Shown here: one piece after another, positions 1 to 33,735 of the stretch
Layout of the letters: each line of letters begins with the position of its first letter
Numbering within the stretch: the first letter of the stretch is position 1
Assembly: GCF_013911755.1 (NCBI RefSeq)
Contig: NZ_JACESP010000006.1
Location: 93,195 to 157,194, forward strand
Source: Sphingosinicella sp.
GTDB taxonomy: Bacteria > Pseudomonadota > Alphaproteobacteria > Sphingomonadales > Sphingomonadaceae
Direction of reading: 5' to 3'
Length of the DNA: 64,000 nucleotides
Made by a program: the position numbers and the translations under genes
Notes under the pieces: model-generated
What the model saw: only the letters and a program-made list of their open reading frames with translations
Told to the model about the DNA's origin: nothing
Database searches by the model: none

Positions 1-2216
1 AGACGGAACGCGCGCTTGTCGGGATCGGCATCGTTGACGGTCACGTCCTCGAAAAACGCGTCGATCGGCGCACGCAGCAAGGCGAGCGCCGCCATCGCGC
101 CTTCGAAATCTTCGGCGGCGACGGCAGCCTCGGCCTTCGGCGCGGCAACGCCGAGCGCCGCGATCAGCGCAGCTTCGGCGGGTTCGGGCGTGTAAGTGGG
201 CGCGTCGGGCGCTGAAGGAAGCTCACCCTTCTTCGCCTCGGCCTTCAAGATGTTCGCCGCACGCTTGTAGCCTGCGAGCAGATTGGCGCCGTCGTCCGTG
301 CCGATGAAGGCCTGAAGCGCCTTCACACGCGCAAGCAGGCGGACGAGATCGTCCTCCCCGCCGAGCGCGAACACGGCATCGATCAGGTCGTGGCGGACAC
401 CGGCCTCACGCTGCTGGACTTTGAGACGGTCAGCAAAGAATTCAACAGCGTTTTCCGGAAAGACCACTGGCTGCGGCAAGAAAAAGGCAATTTTTCCTAC
501 CAAATCACTCAGTGCAAATGAACAATCCCGAGGAACGGGTTCTCGCAGAGCCACGAACAACTCATTGTCGAAGCGCCCTTCGTAGTTTTCCGGGGATGAA
601 ATTGGCGACGTCTTATAGAAAATTCTATCTTGCTCTAAAGCGGAATGATCCAGCTCAAGCCTATACGCAAACAGGCCACGTTCATAAGTCACATCAATCC
701 AATGACGAATGTGCCGATCGAAAAGCCTCTTCAATGAGAACCGTAACCCGCGCTCAATATAACGGATAGAGCCAAGTGCGCTCCGCCTAAGCGCGAAAGG
801 ATCCTTTGAACCGGTTGGCTCTTCTAGAATACCAAAGAACGCTCCGACACTGTCCAGCTTATCCGCCAAACTCACCGCCACCGTCACTGGCGCGGTCGGC
901 ACGTCGTCGCCCTGCCCGACCGGCTTGTAGTGATCGCGGATCGCGTCGGCGACGGCATCCGGCAGTCCCTCTTCGCGGGCGTAGTAGCCGCCCATCAGGC
1001 CTTGCAGTTCGGGGAACTCGCCGACCATGCCGGTGGTGAGGTCGGCCTTGCACAGACGCGCCGCCTGTTCGGCGAGGTCAGCATCCGCGCCTTTGACGAT
1101 GCCTTCCTCGACCAGCCAGCGCGCGAGCTTCGCCACGCGCTCCACCTTGTCCGCGACCGTGCCAAGCTTTTCGTGGAACACGATCTCGGAGAGCTTCGCC
1201 GCATGGCTCTCCAGCGTCTTCTTCTTGTCCTGCTCCCAGAAGAAACGCGCATCCGAAAGCCGCGCGGCAAGCACCTTCTGATTGCCCGCGACGATCGACG
1301 CACCGCCGTCGCTCGCGACAATGTTCGCAGTGCAGACGAATGCCGGAGCGAGCTTGCCCGCCATGTCGCGGCACACGAAATACTTCTGGTTTTTCGCGGC
1401 GGTGAGCTGGATCACCTCCGGCGGCACATCGAGGAACGCCGGATCGAAGCGCCCGAGCAGCGGCACCGGCCATTCGGTGAGGCCCGCGTTCTCCTCGGCA
1501 AGCGCCGCATCCGCCACCAGCTGCAGCCCCGCGTCCGCCGCAAGCCGCTCGGCGGTGTCCGCGATGATCCCCGCGCGCTCTTCCGACGACACGATCACGT
1601 GTGCGGCGCGGAGCTTCGGCGCGTAATCGTCCGCGTCCGCAATCTCGATCGCGCCGGAGGACATGAAGCGGTGGCCGAGCGTCGTTCGGCCCGAAGCGAC
1701 GCCCGCGATCTCGAACGGCACCACCTCGCCGCCCAAGAGCGCAACGATGCCCTTCAGCGGCCGCACCCAGCGCAGCGATTCGGTGGAGAGGCTCGCCTCG
1801 CCCCAGCGCATCGATTTCGGCCACGGGAAGGCGCGCACCACGGCGGGCACGGCCTGCGCGAGCACGTCCGCCGTCTTGCGGCCGGGCTTGGCGATCACCG
1901 CGAAGTAGACCCCGTCCCGCTCTTCGAGCTGGTCCTGCGTCAGGCCGGTCTTGCGGAGGAAACCTTCGAGCGCCTGCGGCGGCGCGGAGGTGCGCGGGCC
2001 TTTCAGCTCTTCCGACACCGCCTCGGTCTCGGCGGGGAGCCCACGCGCGATGAGCGCGACGCGGCGCGGCGTCACGAAGGTTTCGATCGCTTGCGCCTTC
2101 AGCCCCGCGCCCGCGATCTCGGCGGCAAGCAGCCGCGCGAGGTCGGCGGCGGCCTGCCGCTGCATCCGCGCCGGGATTTCCTCGCTGAAAAGTTCGAGCA
2201 GGAAGTCGGCCATCAT
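1..2216 (-). CDS. glyS: Glycyl-tRNA synthetase beta subunit (C-terminus cut by window edge)
   Basis: Beta chain of the heterotetrameric class II glycyl-tRNA synthetase, which with GlyQ charges tRNA-Gly in the cytoplasm. The N-terminus [18 protein letters not shown] and the late segments [25 protein letters not shown] and [12 protein letters not shown] are typical of the family. The start is ATGATG at 2216/2213, overlapping the glyQ stop, so the pair is translationally coupled. About 738 residues lie in the window and the frame is still open at base 1, already longer than the roughly 690 residues of E. coli GlyS. The extra length sits between DPFALRR and FADRLKV (about residues 452-597), where the DNA becomes AT-rich and uses codons rare nearby (TTA, AGA, AGG, ATT), although the frame stays open. 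Identity is secure; the origin of the insert is unknown. Confidence 0.95.
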
Positions 2217-3079
2217 GCCGTCTCCAGCCAGTGGTTGACCTTCATCCAGCTTTCGCACGCCCCCTTGGCGAGGTCGCGCACGCGGCCGATGTAGGCCTGA
2301 CGCTCGGCGACCGAGATGACGCCGCGCGCATTCAGAAGATTGAAGATGTGGCTCGCCTTGATCGCCTGTTCGTAGGCAGGGAGCGGCAGATCATTATCCA
2401 GCAGCGTCCGGCACATGGCCTGCGCGTCCTTGAACTGGCGGAGCAGCGCCTCGGTGTCCGCGTGTTCGAAATTGTACGCGCTCTGCTGCTGTTCGTTTTG
2501 CAGGAACACGTCGCCGTAGGTCACGCCGCGCCCGTTGAAATCGAGGTCGTAGACGTTGTCGACGCCCTGAATATACATGGCGAGGCGCTCAAGCCCGTAG
2601 GTGATCTCGCCCGCAACCGGCTTGCAATCGTAGCCGCCGACCTGCTGGAAATAGGTGAACTGCGTCACCTCCATGCCGTCGCACCAGACCTCCCAGCCGA
2701 GGCCCCATGCGCCGAGTGTCGGGCTTTCCCAGTCGTCCTCCACGAAGCGGATGTCGTGCTTCGCGAGGTCAACGCCGATCTCGCGCAAACTATCGAGGTA
2801 CGCGTCCTGGATGTCCGCAGGGCTCGGCTTCAGGATCACCTGGAACTGGTAATAATGCTGCAAGCGGTTCGGGTTCTCGCCGTAGCGGCCGTCGGTCGGC
2901 CGGCGCGAGGGCTGCACATAGGCGGCGTTCCAAGGCTTTGGCCCGAGCGCGCGCAGCGTCGTTGCCGGATGGAACGTGCCCGCACCCATTTCCATGTCGT
3001 AGGGCTGCAGGATCACGCAGCCCCGGTCACCCCAAAAACGCTGGAGCGTAAGGATGATCTCCTGAAAACTGAGTGCCAC
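2213..3079 (-). CDS. glyQ: Glycyl-tRNA synthetase alpha subunit
   Basis: Catalytic alpha chain of glycyl-tRNA synthetase, 288 residues, the usual family length. The class II core is visible in [20 protein letters not shown] near the N-terminus, followed by [40 protein letters not shown] and a C-terminal [17 protein letters not shown]. It is first in a two-gene operon with glyS, whose ATG overlaps its TGA. The start follows a 79-base gap after the end of the autotransporter gene, which is transcribed in the same direction. The intergenic sequence shows no obvious T-box or terminator. Confidence 0.97.
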
Positions 3080-3158
3080 GCGCGTCCGCCCTTCGCAGGT
3101 GCAAAAAAGTCGGGACGGCTCTAACGGGCGCAGGCCCTTCCGGCAAGCATCACGGTCC

Positions 3159-6100
3159 TCAGAAGTGCATCGCCAGCGACATGGTGAGCGCGTCGTTGGC
3201 GTAGCCCGAGCCGCCCTCGCGGTCGTAGTTGACGCCGAGCGCCGTGCGTCCGCCGACGTAGTTCGCGCTCGCGCCCGCGCGCCACCCGCTGTCGAGCGAG
3301 GATTTCGATTCGAGGTAGAACGCCGCGCCCGTCGCCACGAACTGGCCCTTCGTGCCGATCACCTGATCGCCGGCGAGCCGGTAGATGTAGGCGCCGCGCA
3401 TCTCCAGCCACAGCTCGCCGTCGCCGAGCGGGATGCCGTAGCCGAGCGCAAGCTTCGAGGTGCCGCGCACGAGGTCGAACGAAACGCTTTCGATATCGAG
3501 GTTGAGCGCGTCGGCGCCGTCCTCGGTGTAGCCGTCCTGCTTCACCTTCAGCAAATTGATGTTGTTGCTGGGCGTAACGCGAAGCCGCTTGCCGAGCGGC
3601 ATCTCGTAGCCGACGGTGAGGTTGCCCGAAAGCTGCGAGCCCGAGAACTTCGCCTTAGCCTCGCGGTCCAGCCCGCCGAAGGTGATGACGCGGCGACTGC
3701 GATAGTCGTTCATCGCATAGCCGGCGGTCGCATCCACGAACAGGCGGCCGAAGCGGATCGTCGTGTAGATGTCGCCCTGCAGGTTCTTCACGACGAGCGG
3801 GCTGTCCGCAAGCCCGTCCGGATCGACCTCGCTCGAAATGTAGCTGAGACCGACGCCGACTGCGGCCTTTTCGCCCATGAGCAGGTCGCCGCCGACGGTG
3901 AGGCCGTAGGAGTTGCCATCGAAGGCCGGGTCGTTGTCCCGCTCCTTCTTGCTGAAGAAGTTGCCGGTCTGCTGGATCCACACGCCGAAGCGTGCGCGCT
4001 CCACCGCGTCGATGCCGCCACCGTGGAACGACTGGCGGATCGTCTGCATCCGGTGGCCGAGCACGCCGAAGCCGGCGTCCTGATTGGCGATGAGCACGCG
4101 TGCTGCCGCGCTGCCGAACGTCGTCGGCGTCATCTGGCGCACGGCGGCCTGCACAGCGGCTTCGTCGCGAAGCGCATTGACCGCGCTCGTCAGCGCCTGC
4201 TCCTCGGCGAGCGCCCCGATCGAGGCTTCGTAGACCTTGCTGTATTCGGTGCTGAGGCCAAGCTCGCCGCCACCCTTGCGCCGAAGGTCGATGCTGATCG
4301 AGTCGGCGTCCACGGTCACGTCGTCGACGGCGTAGATATAGGGCACGCTGTCGGCGGTAAGGATCGTGTCCGGATGGTCGGTCGTGAGGCCGCCGCCTGC
4401 GGTGACGACGTTGATCGTCCGCTCGCCCGCCAGCAGATCGGTGATGTTGAGCTCGATCGCGCTCGTGCCCGTGAAGCTCGCCGCGCCCGCGACATTGATG
4501 CCGGTGAAATCCGTGCCGACGTCGAGGACGATCTTCGAGGCGCCGGACGCGTTCAGGCTCTGCAGGCCGAGGCTGTCCTGCCCCGAAAGGTCAAGCGTGC
4601 CGCCGGTCATGCCGAGCGCGAGCGTGCCGCCGGTCGCGGAGAGCCCGCCGGAAACCGTGCCGCCGCTGATATTCAGCGCGTTGCTGCCGCCGCCGAAGCT
4701 GATCGCGCCGGTGATCGTCCCGCCTGAGACGTTCATCGTGTCGCTGCCCGCCCCAAGGCGCACCGCACCATCGATCGTGCCCGAATTGTTCAGCGTGACA
4801 GCGCCTGCGTTCGCCAAGGTGTCGATCGCGTAGGCGGCAACGTTGTCGCCGCTGAAGCCTGTCGCGTCGATCGTGCCGCTGTTGGTGATCGCGGAGACGT
4901 TTCCGGCCGAATAGATGCCGTAGGCGGTGCGGTTGTTGCCGTTCGCCGTAACCTCGATCGTGCCGCTGTTCGTCACCGAAGTCACCGCCGCGCCCGAATC
5001 GACGCGGATGCCGTAGGCGTTGCCGCCCACGCCGAAGCTGCCGTCGCTGTTCGCGGTGCGATTGCCGCGCACGGTGATGCGGCCGCCGTTCACGATATCG
5101 GGCGCGATGCCGCCGTCGCCAACGCGGATGCCGCTTGCCGCCGCATCGATCGCGGAGGCGGTGATGCTGGAGCCCGACTGGTTGTTGATGCCGCCGCCGA
5201 CGCTCGCCGTGAAGCCGTTGCCGCCCACCACGCGAATCGCATCCGTCTCGCGGCCCGATGTGCTGCCGCTCGCCGTGATCGTCGAGCGGTTGACGATGCC
5301 GTAGGCGTCTGCGCCCGTGCCGACATTGCCGACGACGGTGTTCGCCGTGCCGGTCGCGCCGGGCGACACGAGGATCGCCGGCGCGCCGCCGAGCGCCGCC
5401 ACGGTGCCCGCGACGAGCGTGTGCTTGGTGGTATCGACATCGGCCGGCGCGACGCGGTTGCCGTTCGCATCCACGTAGTAGCGGTCGTTGACGAAGCCGC
5501 CGCCGACCGTGCCGGAAATGAGCACGCTCGCCTTGCCTGAGACTGCGGGTACGATGTCGCCGTCCGACTCCGTCGTCTGCGCGACGCCGGTGCCGATGGT
5601 GCCCGCGTTCGCAATGCCCCCGCCGACCGCGCCGGTGATCGCGAGCCCGGTACCATCCGCGCCGGTCGCGGAGACGCCGCCCGTCACCTTCACGTTGCCG
5701 GTGACTTCACCCGACACGGAAACCGCAGTGGAGCGCGCGCCCGTCACCGAAACGCCGTTCACGCCGAGGTTGCCGTTGAGCCGCGAGGTCACGGAAACGC
5801 CGTAGGAGTCCGTGCCGCCCACCGTGATCGAACTGGCGCTGCCGCTCACCACGTTGCCGGTGAACGTGCCCGTGCCGCCGATCAGCAGGCCGACGTTGTT
5901 GGTGCCGACGGCGTCGCTCGCGCCTGTGCCCGTCACCTGGATCGTGCCGTTGTTGGTGATCGTGCCCGAAAGCCCGCCGCCCGGCGTCACCACCGCTACC
6001 CCGGTGCCGTTCGACTGCGTCGTCGTCTTTACCGTGCGCGAGGCGTTCACCGTCACGCTGTTGCTGGAATCGACCGTGATCGCCGTGCCGCTCGAAACGT

Positions 6101-31207: not shown

Positions 31208-32482
31208 CTATCGCCGAATCGGTCGCGGCTTCACATAGCCGAATGTACGCCCTGGGCGCCGCATCGCGCGCTCAATTGAACGCTGCTCGTCCTTCTCAAT
31301 GCGTCGCGCGATCCGATCGACGTCGTCGATCAGGTCATCCCGGAGCCGCGCCAAAGTCAGTACCCATGCGATCCGATCGAGATTCCAAGGCTCACGAAAC
31401 AACAGTAATGTAATCTGGACAATGCTTTGCGCTGTGTCGCCTATTGGCGCCTCAAAACCCGCCGAAAACATGCCGGAGATATGCGTCGTCGGGTCCCAGC
31501 CGTGAATTGGCTGACGCAGTGCTTGCGGACTGGCATGGGTGTCGAAGCAGGCAAGGCGAAACCGAAGCTTTTCACCAAGCTTACCGGCTACTTCCTGCAA
31601 ATTGTGAAATTGCGGCGCATCCGGAAGACCCAACATCCCACCAGCCCAGCCATACGGACTTTGGAAATGGCGGCCGTACCTGCGAACAGCCGCATCACAT
31701 TCACGTTCAATCGTGTCTGCTTCTTTGCCCGAAACTTTGGCAACGCCGAGGGTGGCCGCCGCACGGCGATAATCATTCAGCGCTTTCTTACGCTCGATCG
31801 CCTCATGTGCGAAATAACGCTCGGCTATCGCATCCCCTCCTGCCGCGATCAGCGTTGCGGTCACTGCCACCTCATGCAACGTGCGCCATCGGCCTTGCGC
31901 TCCTTCGGTATGGCCGTTCGAGACGAGCAGGATAATCTCTTCAGCTATCCGGCAGGCTCGAATATGCAAGCGGGCGAGTGCCACATTGCGCGCAGCATCG
32001 CGCTTCAGATTCGATTTCATCTGCGCGAAGTTGAAGGTCTCACCCTCCTCACAGCAAAGTGCGACAACTAGGCGCAAAGCATCGAGTGCGCCGCCCCACG
32101 TTTTGGCAATCCGCGTTTGGATTTTGGCGGCCTCATCGACGGAAGGCTGGCTATCCTTCCATTGACTCCGATATTCTTCAACCAGCTGTTGGGCAGCCAT
32201 TTCGGCGACTTTGTCTACAAAGTCGGGGAGCTCGTCCATGAAGCCCGACATGGCCTTCTCAAACTGCTTCATGTCTTCCTCGGTGAAGTCGAGGCTTCTG
32301 CCGACCGGAGATTTGATAGTTATTATTTTCCCTTCATTTGCCATAAGCGCCTCGGCGATTTGGCGCACAAGTACGGGATCATCGACGTTAACCGCCGCGA
32401 GCTTTTCGGCGATGATGTTCTCGATTACTAATAGAGGAAATTTTTCTAAGCTGTCTTCGAATGACTGATGTAGCGCGCCCAT
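31208..32482 (-). CDS. DUF5677-type protein, accessory
   Basis: A 424-residue soluble protein. The central part RLHIRACRIAEEIILLVSNG followed by GAQGRWRTLHEVAVTATLIA matches my recollection of DUF5677 proteins (a long helical domain of unknown function, often in genomic islands). The N-terminal 150 residues are helical and charged; the C-terminus ends in basic RRPGRTFGYVKPRPIRR. The DNA is visibly poorer in GC than its neighbours, suggesting transfer. The ATG at 32482 has GAGAGGG about 8 bases upstream; an earlier ATG at 32497 lacks one. No toxin, nuclease or NTPase motif was seen. Confidence 0.72.
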   Translation of the reverse strand: MGALHQSFEDSLEKFPLLVIENIIAEKLAAVNVDDPVLVRQIAEALMANEGKIITIKSPVGRSLDFTEEDMKQFEKAMSGFMDELPDFVDKVAEMAAQQLVEEYRSQWKDSQPSVDEAAKIQTRIAKTWGGALDALRLVVALCCEEGETFNFAQMKSNLKRDAARNVALARLHIRACRIAEEIILLVSNGHTEGAQGRWRTLHEVAVTATLIAAGGDAIAERYFAHEAIERKKALNDYRRAAATLGVAKVSGKEADTIERECDAAVRRYGRHFQSPYGWAGGMLGLPDAPQFHNLQEVAGKLGEKLRFRLACFDTHASPQALRQPIHGWDPTTHISGMFSAGFEAPIGDTAQSIVQITLLLFREPWNLDRIAWVLTLARLRDDLIDDVDRIARRIEKDEQRSIERAMRRPGRTFGYVKPRPIRR

Positions 32483-32532
32483 GTTTCGCCCTCTCATTTT
32501 GAGCCCGCACTAAATTCTGATTCTGCGTCATC

Positions 32533-33735
32533 TCACTTCGCCGCAACCAACCGCCCATACTTCTTCAAGATCGCCCGCAGCTCCGCGTGCGGCAGGCGCT
32601 GGATGGTGTAGCCGTTGACGCCGGTCAGCGTGTCGGCCGCAACCAGCACGTTGGTGATGGCCTCTTCGGTCGCCTGCGTCGCCGCTTCGAAGATCACCGT
32701 CAGCTTGTCGTTGGGCATCGTTTCGACGCTGATCACAGTGCCGCCCACGCTTTGCACATTCGCGTTCGCGGTCGAGAAGGCGACGAAGATGTCGCCCGAG
32801 CCGTTGCTGCCCGCATCGCCCGTGCGGCCCATGCCCGCCGCCGCGCGCTTGGCGAGGCGTTTCAGCTGGTGTGGCAGCATCGGTGCATCCGTCGCCATCA
32901 CCACGATGATCGAGCCGTCGCCCGGCGCGACGCCGGTGTTCGTCGCCGCCGTTTGCGTCCCGCGTGTTTCGGGCAGATATTTGCCTGCGAGTTCCTCGCC
33001 CACGGGCGCGCCCGCCACGCGCAACCACGGCCTCATGCCGAAGTTGCACTGCACGAGCACGCCGACTGTGTAGCTCTTCCCATCCATCTCGATAACGCGC
33101 GAGGCCGTGCCCGTGCCGCCCTTGAAGCCGAAGCACTGCATCCCGACACCGCCGCCGACATTGCCTTCGGCCACCGGGCCGCTTGCGGCGGTCTGGATCG
33201 CGCGCATCGCGTGCTCGGGCTTCACGTGGAAGCCGTTGATGTCGTTCAGCATCCCGTCGTAGGTTTCGGCCACCACCGGCGTGAACCACGCCCCCGGCCA
33301 TTTCACGTCCGCAAGCCACCCCACCACCGCGTCGCGCACCACGCCGACGCTGTGCGTGTTGGTGATCATCACCGGCCCATCGAAATAGCCGCGCTCCTCC
33401 AGCCACACCGTGCCGGTCATCTCCCCGGCGGCATTGCTGGTTTCCCAGCCCGCGTAAACCGGCGTGCGCGAATCCTTGCCGCGCGGCAGCACGGCGGTGA
33501 CGCCTGTGCGCACCGGCCCCTTGCCCCGCTCGAGCTTGCCTTCGCCCGAAATCAGGCTGACGTATCCGACCTCGACGCCCGCGACGTCCGTGATCGCGTT
33601 GTTCGCCCCCGGTTTCCCCGCGAACGGCACGCCGAGGTCGCGCGCGCGCACGGTGTCCGCGCTCGCCGCAGCGCTCGGTGCACCTGCCAGAGCCAAGCCC
33701 GCCGCGATGATCGCCGCAAATCGCCGATAGTGCAT
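32533..33735 (-). CDS. P1 family (DmpA/S58) autoprocessing aminopeptidase, exported
   Basis: A 400-residue member of the DmpA family of N-terminal-nucleophile peptidases (L-aminopeptidase D-esterase or beta-peptidyl aminopeptidase). The signal peptide is residues 1-26. The self-cleavage site is GDGSIIVVMATDAPML, with Ser275 as the predicted nucleophile after cleavage of Gly274-Ser275. Other family blocks are NNAITDVAGVEVGYVSL, NTHSVGVVRDAVVGW and NGFHVKPEHAMRAIQTA. GGGGGAAG lies 6 bases before the ATG. It lies 50 bases beyond the DUF5677 gene on the same strand, but the two have different base composition. Confidence 0.92.
   Translation of the reverse strand: MHYRRFAAIIAAGLALAGAPSAAASADTVRARDLGVPFAGKPGANNAITDVAGVEVGYVSLISGEGKLERGKGPVRTGVTAVLPRGKDSRTPVYAGWETSNAAGEMTGTVWLEERGYFDGPVMITNTHSVGVVRDAVVGWLADVKWPGAWFTPVVAETYDGMLNDINGFHVKPEHAMRAIQTAASGPVAEGNVGGGVGMQCFGFKGGTGTASRVIEMDGKSYTVGVLVQCNFGMRPWLRVAGAPVGEELAGKYLPETRGTQTAATNTGVAPGDGSIIVVMATDAPMLPHQLKRLAKRAAAGMGRTGDAGSNGSGDIFVAFSTANANVQSVGGTVISVETMPNDKLTVIFEAATQATEEAITNVLVAADTLTGVNGYTIQRLPHAELRAILKKYGRLVAAK

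Follow-up and report, generated by a model that had tools for sequence, protein, structure and literature searches.

A tract of about 430 bp inside glyS, the gene for the beta subunit of glycyl-tRNA synthetase (GlyRS), had a history decoupled from that of the rest of the gene, with unrelated segments at the same site in most of the species compared. The pattern indicates repeated replacement of the tract, probably by recombination with foreign glyS alleles, followed by vertical inheritance. Judged from sequence, the GlyRS beta subunit has a polymorphic site in its HD domain, and the segment found here, in a stretch of 64,000 nucleotides from Sphingosinicella sp. (the window), is one of the alleles. 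Exchange behaviour of this kind is known from other proteins; GlyRS is new as a host protein.

The glyS locus and its AT-rich tract

Features of the locus are collected in Table 1. The last ~22 codons and the stop codon of glyS lie beyond the window edge and the complete gene (L002, 3129-5408) encodes 759 aa. GlyS matched the whole of the Pfam model PF02092 (positions 1-535 of 536; E = 3e-181), its predicted structure was matched by Foldseek to E. coli GlyRS (7yse_C, E = 1.3e-43, and 7eiv) and to other GlyRS structures, and the paired gene glyQ, 91-97% identical across the four congeners compared, supports the same identity. The order glyQ-glyS-ppdK was also seen in Sphingomonas parapaucimobilis (L215, NZ_CP155756.1), in a 197-kb record that is labelled a plasmid and also carries purB and a gene for ribosomal protein L25; the glyS segment there had a GC of 0.47 vs 0.68. 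No glyS match was obtained in one genome (G117) despite an assembly listed as 99% complete, where another GlyRS type or a missed match is possible.

Table 1. Coordinates of features at the glyS end of the window.
Feature	Position	Strand	Basis or remark
glyS, glycyl-tRNA synthetase beta subunit	3..2213	minus	PF02092 and Foldseek; ATG = 2213-2211
glyQ, alpha subunit	2213..3079	minus	Named by sequence and position; upstream of glyS
ppdK-like ORF	downstream of glyS		Named by analogy with the glyQ-glyS-ppdK order in L215
Putative exchange tract (recoded flank and hypervariable segment)	441..872	minus	G+C 0.484 vs 0.686 in the rest of glyS examined
Hypervariable core	447..761	minus	Mid-part mean pairwise identity 0.00-0.02; predicted helical, low confidence
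About 30 codons (SLADKLD... to end of DPFALRR block)	783..872	minus	Protein largely conserved, codons recoded; probably exchanged with the segment
Equivalent of E. coli Loop H18-19 (tRNA contact)	783..812	minus	Our alignment to E. coli GlyS and an excerpt of PMC9908026
Conserved right border	411..440	minus	Identity between relatives recovers here in most pairs

The initial annotation had described an AT-rich in-frame segment in glyS, which was borne out: positions 481-780 contained exactly 139 G+C in 300 bases and the reading frame was open throughout. Mean 300-bp G+C over the 64 kb was 65.5% (sd 4.0 points), and only three of 6,370 intervals taken in 10-bp steps were as low as 481-780 (starts 441, 471 and 481). 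The 150-bp GC minimum of glyS (0.43) was the lowest among 46 window ORFs that measured 150 aa or more from stop to stop and had a homologue in sequence taken from two congeners; the next was 0.51. The sole other stretch with a 300-bp GC of at most 50% was 32151-32580, mostly between the ORFs considered. The reported codon shift held, on small numbers: TTA, AGA and AGG occurred two, one and three times in the 144-codon tract vs 0 in the other 593 glyS codons examined, and ATT seven times vs two. The excess of residues over E. coli GlyS was likewise found, with 114 between DPFALRR and FFADRLKVQ vs ~44 (E. coli counted by eye). Since the codons of the conserved loop were foreign as well, the start of the anomalous tract was placed some 90 nt ahead of the point where DPFALRR ends (to about position 872).

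In the AlphaFold2 model the GlyRS core had pLDDT values mostly above 90 and the segment, placed between helices 474-485 and 584-602, had block means of 43-63 over residues 511-580; the prediction for one three-member segment family was uninformative (mean pLDDT 43). For E. coli GlyRS, an excerpt of PMC9908026 describes contacts of Loop H18-19 (G473, D474, D476) and R481/R482 with the acceptor stem and U73, and a rotation of the HD domain by about 30 degrees when tRNA binds. As positions 783-812 align with this tRNA-contact loop, the segment would follow directly on the tRNA-contact helix, and the ~430-bp tract would span mid-helix H18, Loop H18-19, helix H19 and the segment. The E. coli GlyRS beta HD domain (7EIV, 7YSE; excerpts of PMC8464048 and PMC9908026) is the same domain, with Loop H18-19 and helix H19 before the site; it differs in its linker, which is about 44 aa long and is kept in the Enterobacter and Klebsiella records that were compared.

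Diversity at the site among relatives

GlyS sequences were drawn from 80 genome contigs, a family search and 80 further stretches, the last hand-picked from the family-search matches listed, roughly by score with about a dozen skipped and so not random; each species is represented by one genome. A segment was called in 197 of 204 loci, giving 185 distinct GlyS with a measurable segment, of which about 28 belong, going by record title, to other alphaproteobacterial groups. Two of the seven loci without a call (L007, L071) lack usable sequence to the right border and in five (L108, L138, L169, L177, L197) the segment was visible but the right-anchor pattern did not catch it.

In the four congeners with a readable site the N-terminal part of GlyS was 91-94% identical and the site held 24, 65, 124 and 51 residues of other sequence; a fifth (G003) had only a C-terminal GlyS piece. 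The distance from DPFALRR to FFADRL ranged from 24 to 143 aa over the 185 distinct GlyS and was at most 30 aa in 32, a minimal form of 24-27 aa occurring in many genomes. Of the 153 segments that extend 20 aa or more past their first 15, 136 had a lower GC than their flanks (77 by at least 10 points) and 17 did not; segment GC was often near 0.45-0.5. In an alignment of 135 of the 185 whole GlyS, mean pairwise identity was 0.00-0.02 over residues 501-580 and mostly 0.5-0.8 in the flanks; the next weakest block, the linker before the C-terminal domain, had 0.23. When the 125 segments with a length of 30 aa or more were clustered by blastp (E<1e-4 at 60% coverage), they gave 108 groups, with 94 singletons, 11 doubletons and a largest group of three members, from which Chao1 estimates about 470 segment families in the sampled range. 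The window's own segment had no match in any other of 397 family genomes, and one three-member segment family sought in the same genomes had two carriers, both at their own glyS coordinates.

The compositional island of the initial annotation, offered as either a foreign in-frame insertion or a fast-diverging extension, was thus partly supported: the codon usage is foreign and the place is expanded relative to E. coli, but neither simple origin fits. What recurred in sphingomonads was the site and its lower GC, not the same insert. A simple fast-diverging extension does not fit because the synonymous sites of the flank were randomised while shared segments were conserved between species.

In type I restriction, the target-recognition domains of HsdS are unrelated central segments between conserved flanks and are exchanged by recombination across species. 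The site in GlyS has the same layout of unrelated segments between conserved flanks. HsdS differs in that it is accessory and the task of its variable domain is known, whereas GlyS is an essential housekeeping enzyme and its segment has no known task; aminoacyl-tRNA synthetases as a class are conserved housekeeping enzymes.

A second, less variable allele type, with a linker of 39-51 aa and a different following block (VRHDYIQASRDW...), was present in 10 of the 185 sequences (L006, L051, L058, L065, L068, L069, L166, L171, L178, L187), a few more being missed by the anchor. It occupied six tips of the tree and needed five changes.

Turnover was strong in the window's family. In a second family (6 of 36 loci missed by the pattern) the site was variable and short related segments were common to several genomes, which counts against replacement; one segment of this family was read as identical to that of L081, a record titled Rhodobiaceae. 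Four genomes of another family carried a similar short segment, with a GC of 0.40-0.56, and three Phenylobacterium records had one common segment. No turnover was seen in Sinorhizobium (two S. meliloti strains and one more) or in three genomes matching Tistrella, each with a single segment of host GC, nor in three records of E. coli, Enterobacter and Klebsiella (upstream identity 0.86-0.87, segment 0.87-0.88). A comparable variable site was absent from ValS, LeuS (over 725 columns) and MetS of the window's genus.

Repeat-like in-frame peptides, several of the PAEAGAHG..MDSGLRRND type, lay between conserved synthetase blocks in the genus, in ValS of G004 (L254) and in GlyS of G004 (L005), G001 (L004) and G002 (L006); they resemble translated intergenic repeats. 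IleS also varied, over 45-84 aa between TTTPWT and ARHPxHxLGG (L255-L258, L291-L319), but less extremely than GlyS: 22 of 25 segments grouped together, and the pattern missed 8 of 33 loci. The GC of this IleS stretch in congener G001 was 0.47 vs about 0.65 around it.

The recoded flank and inheritance of the tract

Between close relatives with different segments, DNA identity fell from ~0.9 to ~0.6-0.8 in the 90 nt that lead up to the segment, and in the same 90 nt the protein (ADKLD...DPFALRR) was largely conserved. In 20 such pairs, 10 of them within the window's genus, the collapse began from residue ~447; in four close pairs with the same segment the dip was absent, the close pairs being few and not independent. 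Where the residue agreed, codon agreement was 0.06-0.56 at residues 466-476 vs 0.40-1.00 at residues 426-446. Two close different-segment pairs of the second family (L224/L245, L218/L222) lacked a marked flank dip, which counts against the same process there.

The near flank (24 codons before the segment) of different-segment pairs had a mean identity of 0.62-0.64 in every relatedness class shown, from an upstream identity of 0.60 to over 0.90 (6,929 of 7,730 pairs, with 11 in the class from 0.90 up). Same-segment pairs exceeded 0.64 in 18 of 20 cases, reaching up to 0.89, and 10 of the 20 ranked above at least about 98.7% of the different-segment pairs comparable to them. In four of the 20 the near flank was no better than in different-segment pairs (share over 0.3), which speaks against exchange. 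This comparison was ungapped at a fixed distance from DPFALRR, so far identities are possibly too low (one pair 0.33); the second-family, Sinorhizobium and enterobacterial pairs were likewise compared ungapped from DPFALRR. Composition followed the same boundary: GC3 of the 28 flank codons was 0.64 vs 0.78 farther upstream (n = 125, Wilcoxon 5e-17) and tracked segment GC3 (r = 0.64; Spearman 0.58 for the deviations of flank and segment), and in segment-free genes it was 0.75 vs 0.77 farther upstream (n = 29). Because flank identity and GC3 go with the segment, the tract of about codons 447-590 (positions 441-872) has its own history. Its left edge was rather constant in sphingomonads and lay elsewhere in another family (L218/L222, flank 0.99 and segments different), and the right edge was sometimes ~30-45 codons further; such shifts between pairs fit homologous crossovers rather than a site-specific enzyme.

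The segment was shared in four of 26 pairs with an upstream identity of at least 0.84. In the N-terminal tree (FastTree; 44 of 132 inner branches well supported) the segment-free form occupied 23 of 135 tips and required 17 changes, compared with 17-23 (mean 21.3) in 200 shuffles. This lies at the low end of the shuffles and suggests that the segment-free state is inherited to some degree and lost or regained often; the shuffles thus agree in part with a segment history decoupled from the rest of the gene. The 14 shared segments had 40-86% protein identity across species. A dS below 1 was obtained for three of these 14 pairs, which had a dN/dS of 0.12-0.22; the others were near saturation or beyond, so that the evidence for constraint rests on few pairs. 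A segment shared within Microvirga had a dN of 0.089 and a dS of 0.66, with an upstream dS of 0.69. Where dS is unsaturated, shared segments look constrained, which fits replacement and then vertical inheritance under constraint. In most cross-genus same-segment pairs the segment was no more alike than the upstream part, which counts against exchange, and in L018/L023 and L200/L202 it was slightly more alike.

Origin of the segments and competing explanations

No related segment was found in the phage and viral collections. A tblastn search with the window's segment gave, among the phage matches listed, only matches of E = 5; 15 GlyS matches in the phage collection reached query residue 508 at most and were below 60% identical (10 of the 15 records being without annotation), and one pattern match in viral contigs gave no confirmed related segment. 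Searches of 109 segments against Pfam, PHROGs and PADLOC found no family common to them, only single-member matches (best E 0.0011, 0.0012 and 0.0035, respectively). Among 385 genomes of the class, the window's segment gave six weak matches (E 0.012-0.083), none in a GlyS ORF among the three longest ORFs of each locus (two for one locus), and these were taken as chance; two of the loci (L206, L208) presumably hold DnaB-like ORFs. A structured RNA was rejected (folding z = -0.87; no Rfam match in positions 1-4000). No donor of a foreign glyS tract was caught in these searches, which counts against exchange. A search of open-licence PMC articles, judged by title and the start of the abstract, returned no published account of a swappable GlyS segment.

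Recombinational replacement of the internal tract appears well supported by the comparisons of flank and segment. The tracts most probably arrive by homologous recombination with other glyS alleles, with crossovers in the conserved codons on either side and donors often of lower GC, and would then be inherited vertically under constraint. Less firmly, diversifying (rare-allele) selection might drive the turnover: a phage protein or a competitor's inhibitor could bind this face of GlyRS, the segment might act as a steric or decoy surface beside the acceptor-stem loop, and a swap of segments might escape recognition with catalysis kept. For this explanation as a whole, with recombined tracts, vertical inheritance and diversifying selection by a binder of the GlyRS face, we put the probability at about 0.6. 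Horizontal acquisition of foreign sequence by aminoacyl-tRNA synthetase genes is described in an excerpt of PMC8464048; glyS would differ in that only a ~430-bp internal tract is replaced, repeatedly and at one site.

Alternatively, the segments may tune GlyRS in a lineage-specific way, neutral or adaptive (stability, alpha-beta assembly or a moonlighting partner), with exchange frequent merely through the tolerance of the site, and the position beside the tRNA-contact loop, in a domain that rotates on tRNA binding (excerpt of PMC9908026), suits this, as does the apparent constraint on some shared segments. Such tuning leaves unexplained why most species, congeners included, differ rather than share a few successful segments, and we think it unlikely. 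We find it rather improbable that the site is an unconstrained surface loop, a tolerated spacer between helices subject to drift and indels in place and to an AT-biased mutational equilibrium. The wide range of lengths, the widespread minimal form, the poor AlphaFold2 prediction and the GC often near 0.45-0.5 are all expected of such a loop, but relaxed constraint does not saturate the synonymous sites of conserved upstream codons between ~90%-identical relatives, the near-flank comparison weakens the idea further, and neither the protein identity kept by the 14 shared segments nor the low dN/dS of three pairs agrees with it.

Mobile or mutagenic elements account for less. A selfish in-frame element (palindromic of the Rickettsia type, a mini-intein or a homing element) at a fixed site, co-converting the flank codons, would produce the conversion-like footprint and the patchy presence and absence. 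Rickettsia palindromic elements do add in-frame sequence to genes of Alphaproteobacteria, as copies of a repeat family; the GlyS tract differs in that it has neither a palindrome nor repeats, direct or inverted, and occurs only once in the window's genome. Pfam scans of the 109 segments (E 0.01) gave no splicing or nuclease family, which also led us to reject an intein. With 108 groups rather than one, a segment length that goes down to 30 aa, and no copy at another locus in the 397 family genomes for the window's segment and one other family, such an element is quite improbable. Local hypermutation, for example by a diversity-generating retroelement, could leave the rather sharp left edge; a template search of the window's genome at E up to 1 returned the tract itself only, lengths differ and shared segments are conserved, so that we give it very little credence. 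That the segment is unique to this genome among 397 would suit a single foreign insertion or an assembly artefact, a reading whose probability is next to nil given that the site varies in all four readable congeners and across the 185 distinct GlyS from many independent assemblies, including a single-contig genome (G004).

Recombination with other glyS alleles under pressure from a binder is the favoured reading, its two parts being of different strength. Loci under rare-allele selection include HsdS recognition domains and surface antigens. A binder of this GlyRS face is tentatively favoured as the driver, at less than even odds, because the GlyS site resembles such loci: sister species diverge there almost totally, alleles are rare and of lower GC, and each allele is constrained. 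Against a binder, no partner, donor or family match was found in our searches, and the structure predictions of the segments are of low confidence. It is possible, if somewhat doubtful, that GlyRS is an arms-race target in sphingomonads, with phage or competitor factors escaped by means of segments from a horizontally shared pool. An excerpt of PMC8711792 tabulates a glyS SNP with the number 4, which we took to be the count of phage-resistant E. coli mutants; this faint hint was given no weight.

For marker work, glyS is a poor choice in these bacteria, and signatures based on its insert mislead. The natural series of segments offers a means of asking what the HD domain does, and the segments could serve as bait, a handle for finding a GlyRS inhibitor or phage factor. 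A site whose turnover roughly keeps pace with speciation, and whose tRNA-contact loop is recoded along with it, would imply a selective agent acting on GlyRS in nature; if the arms-race reading is true, an essential translation enzyme would behave like a surface antigen.
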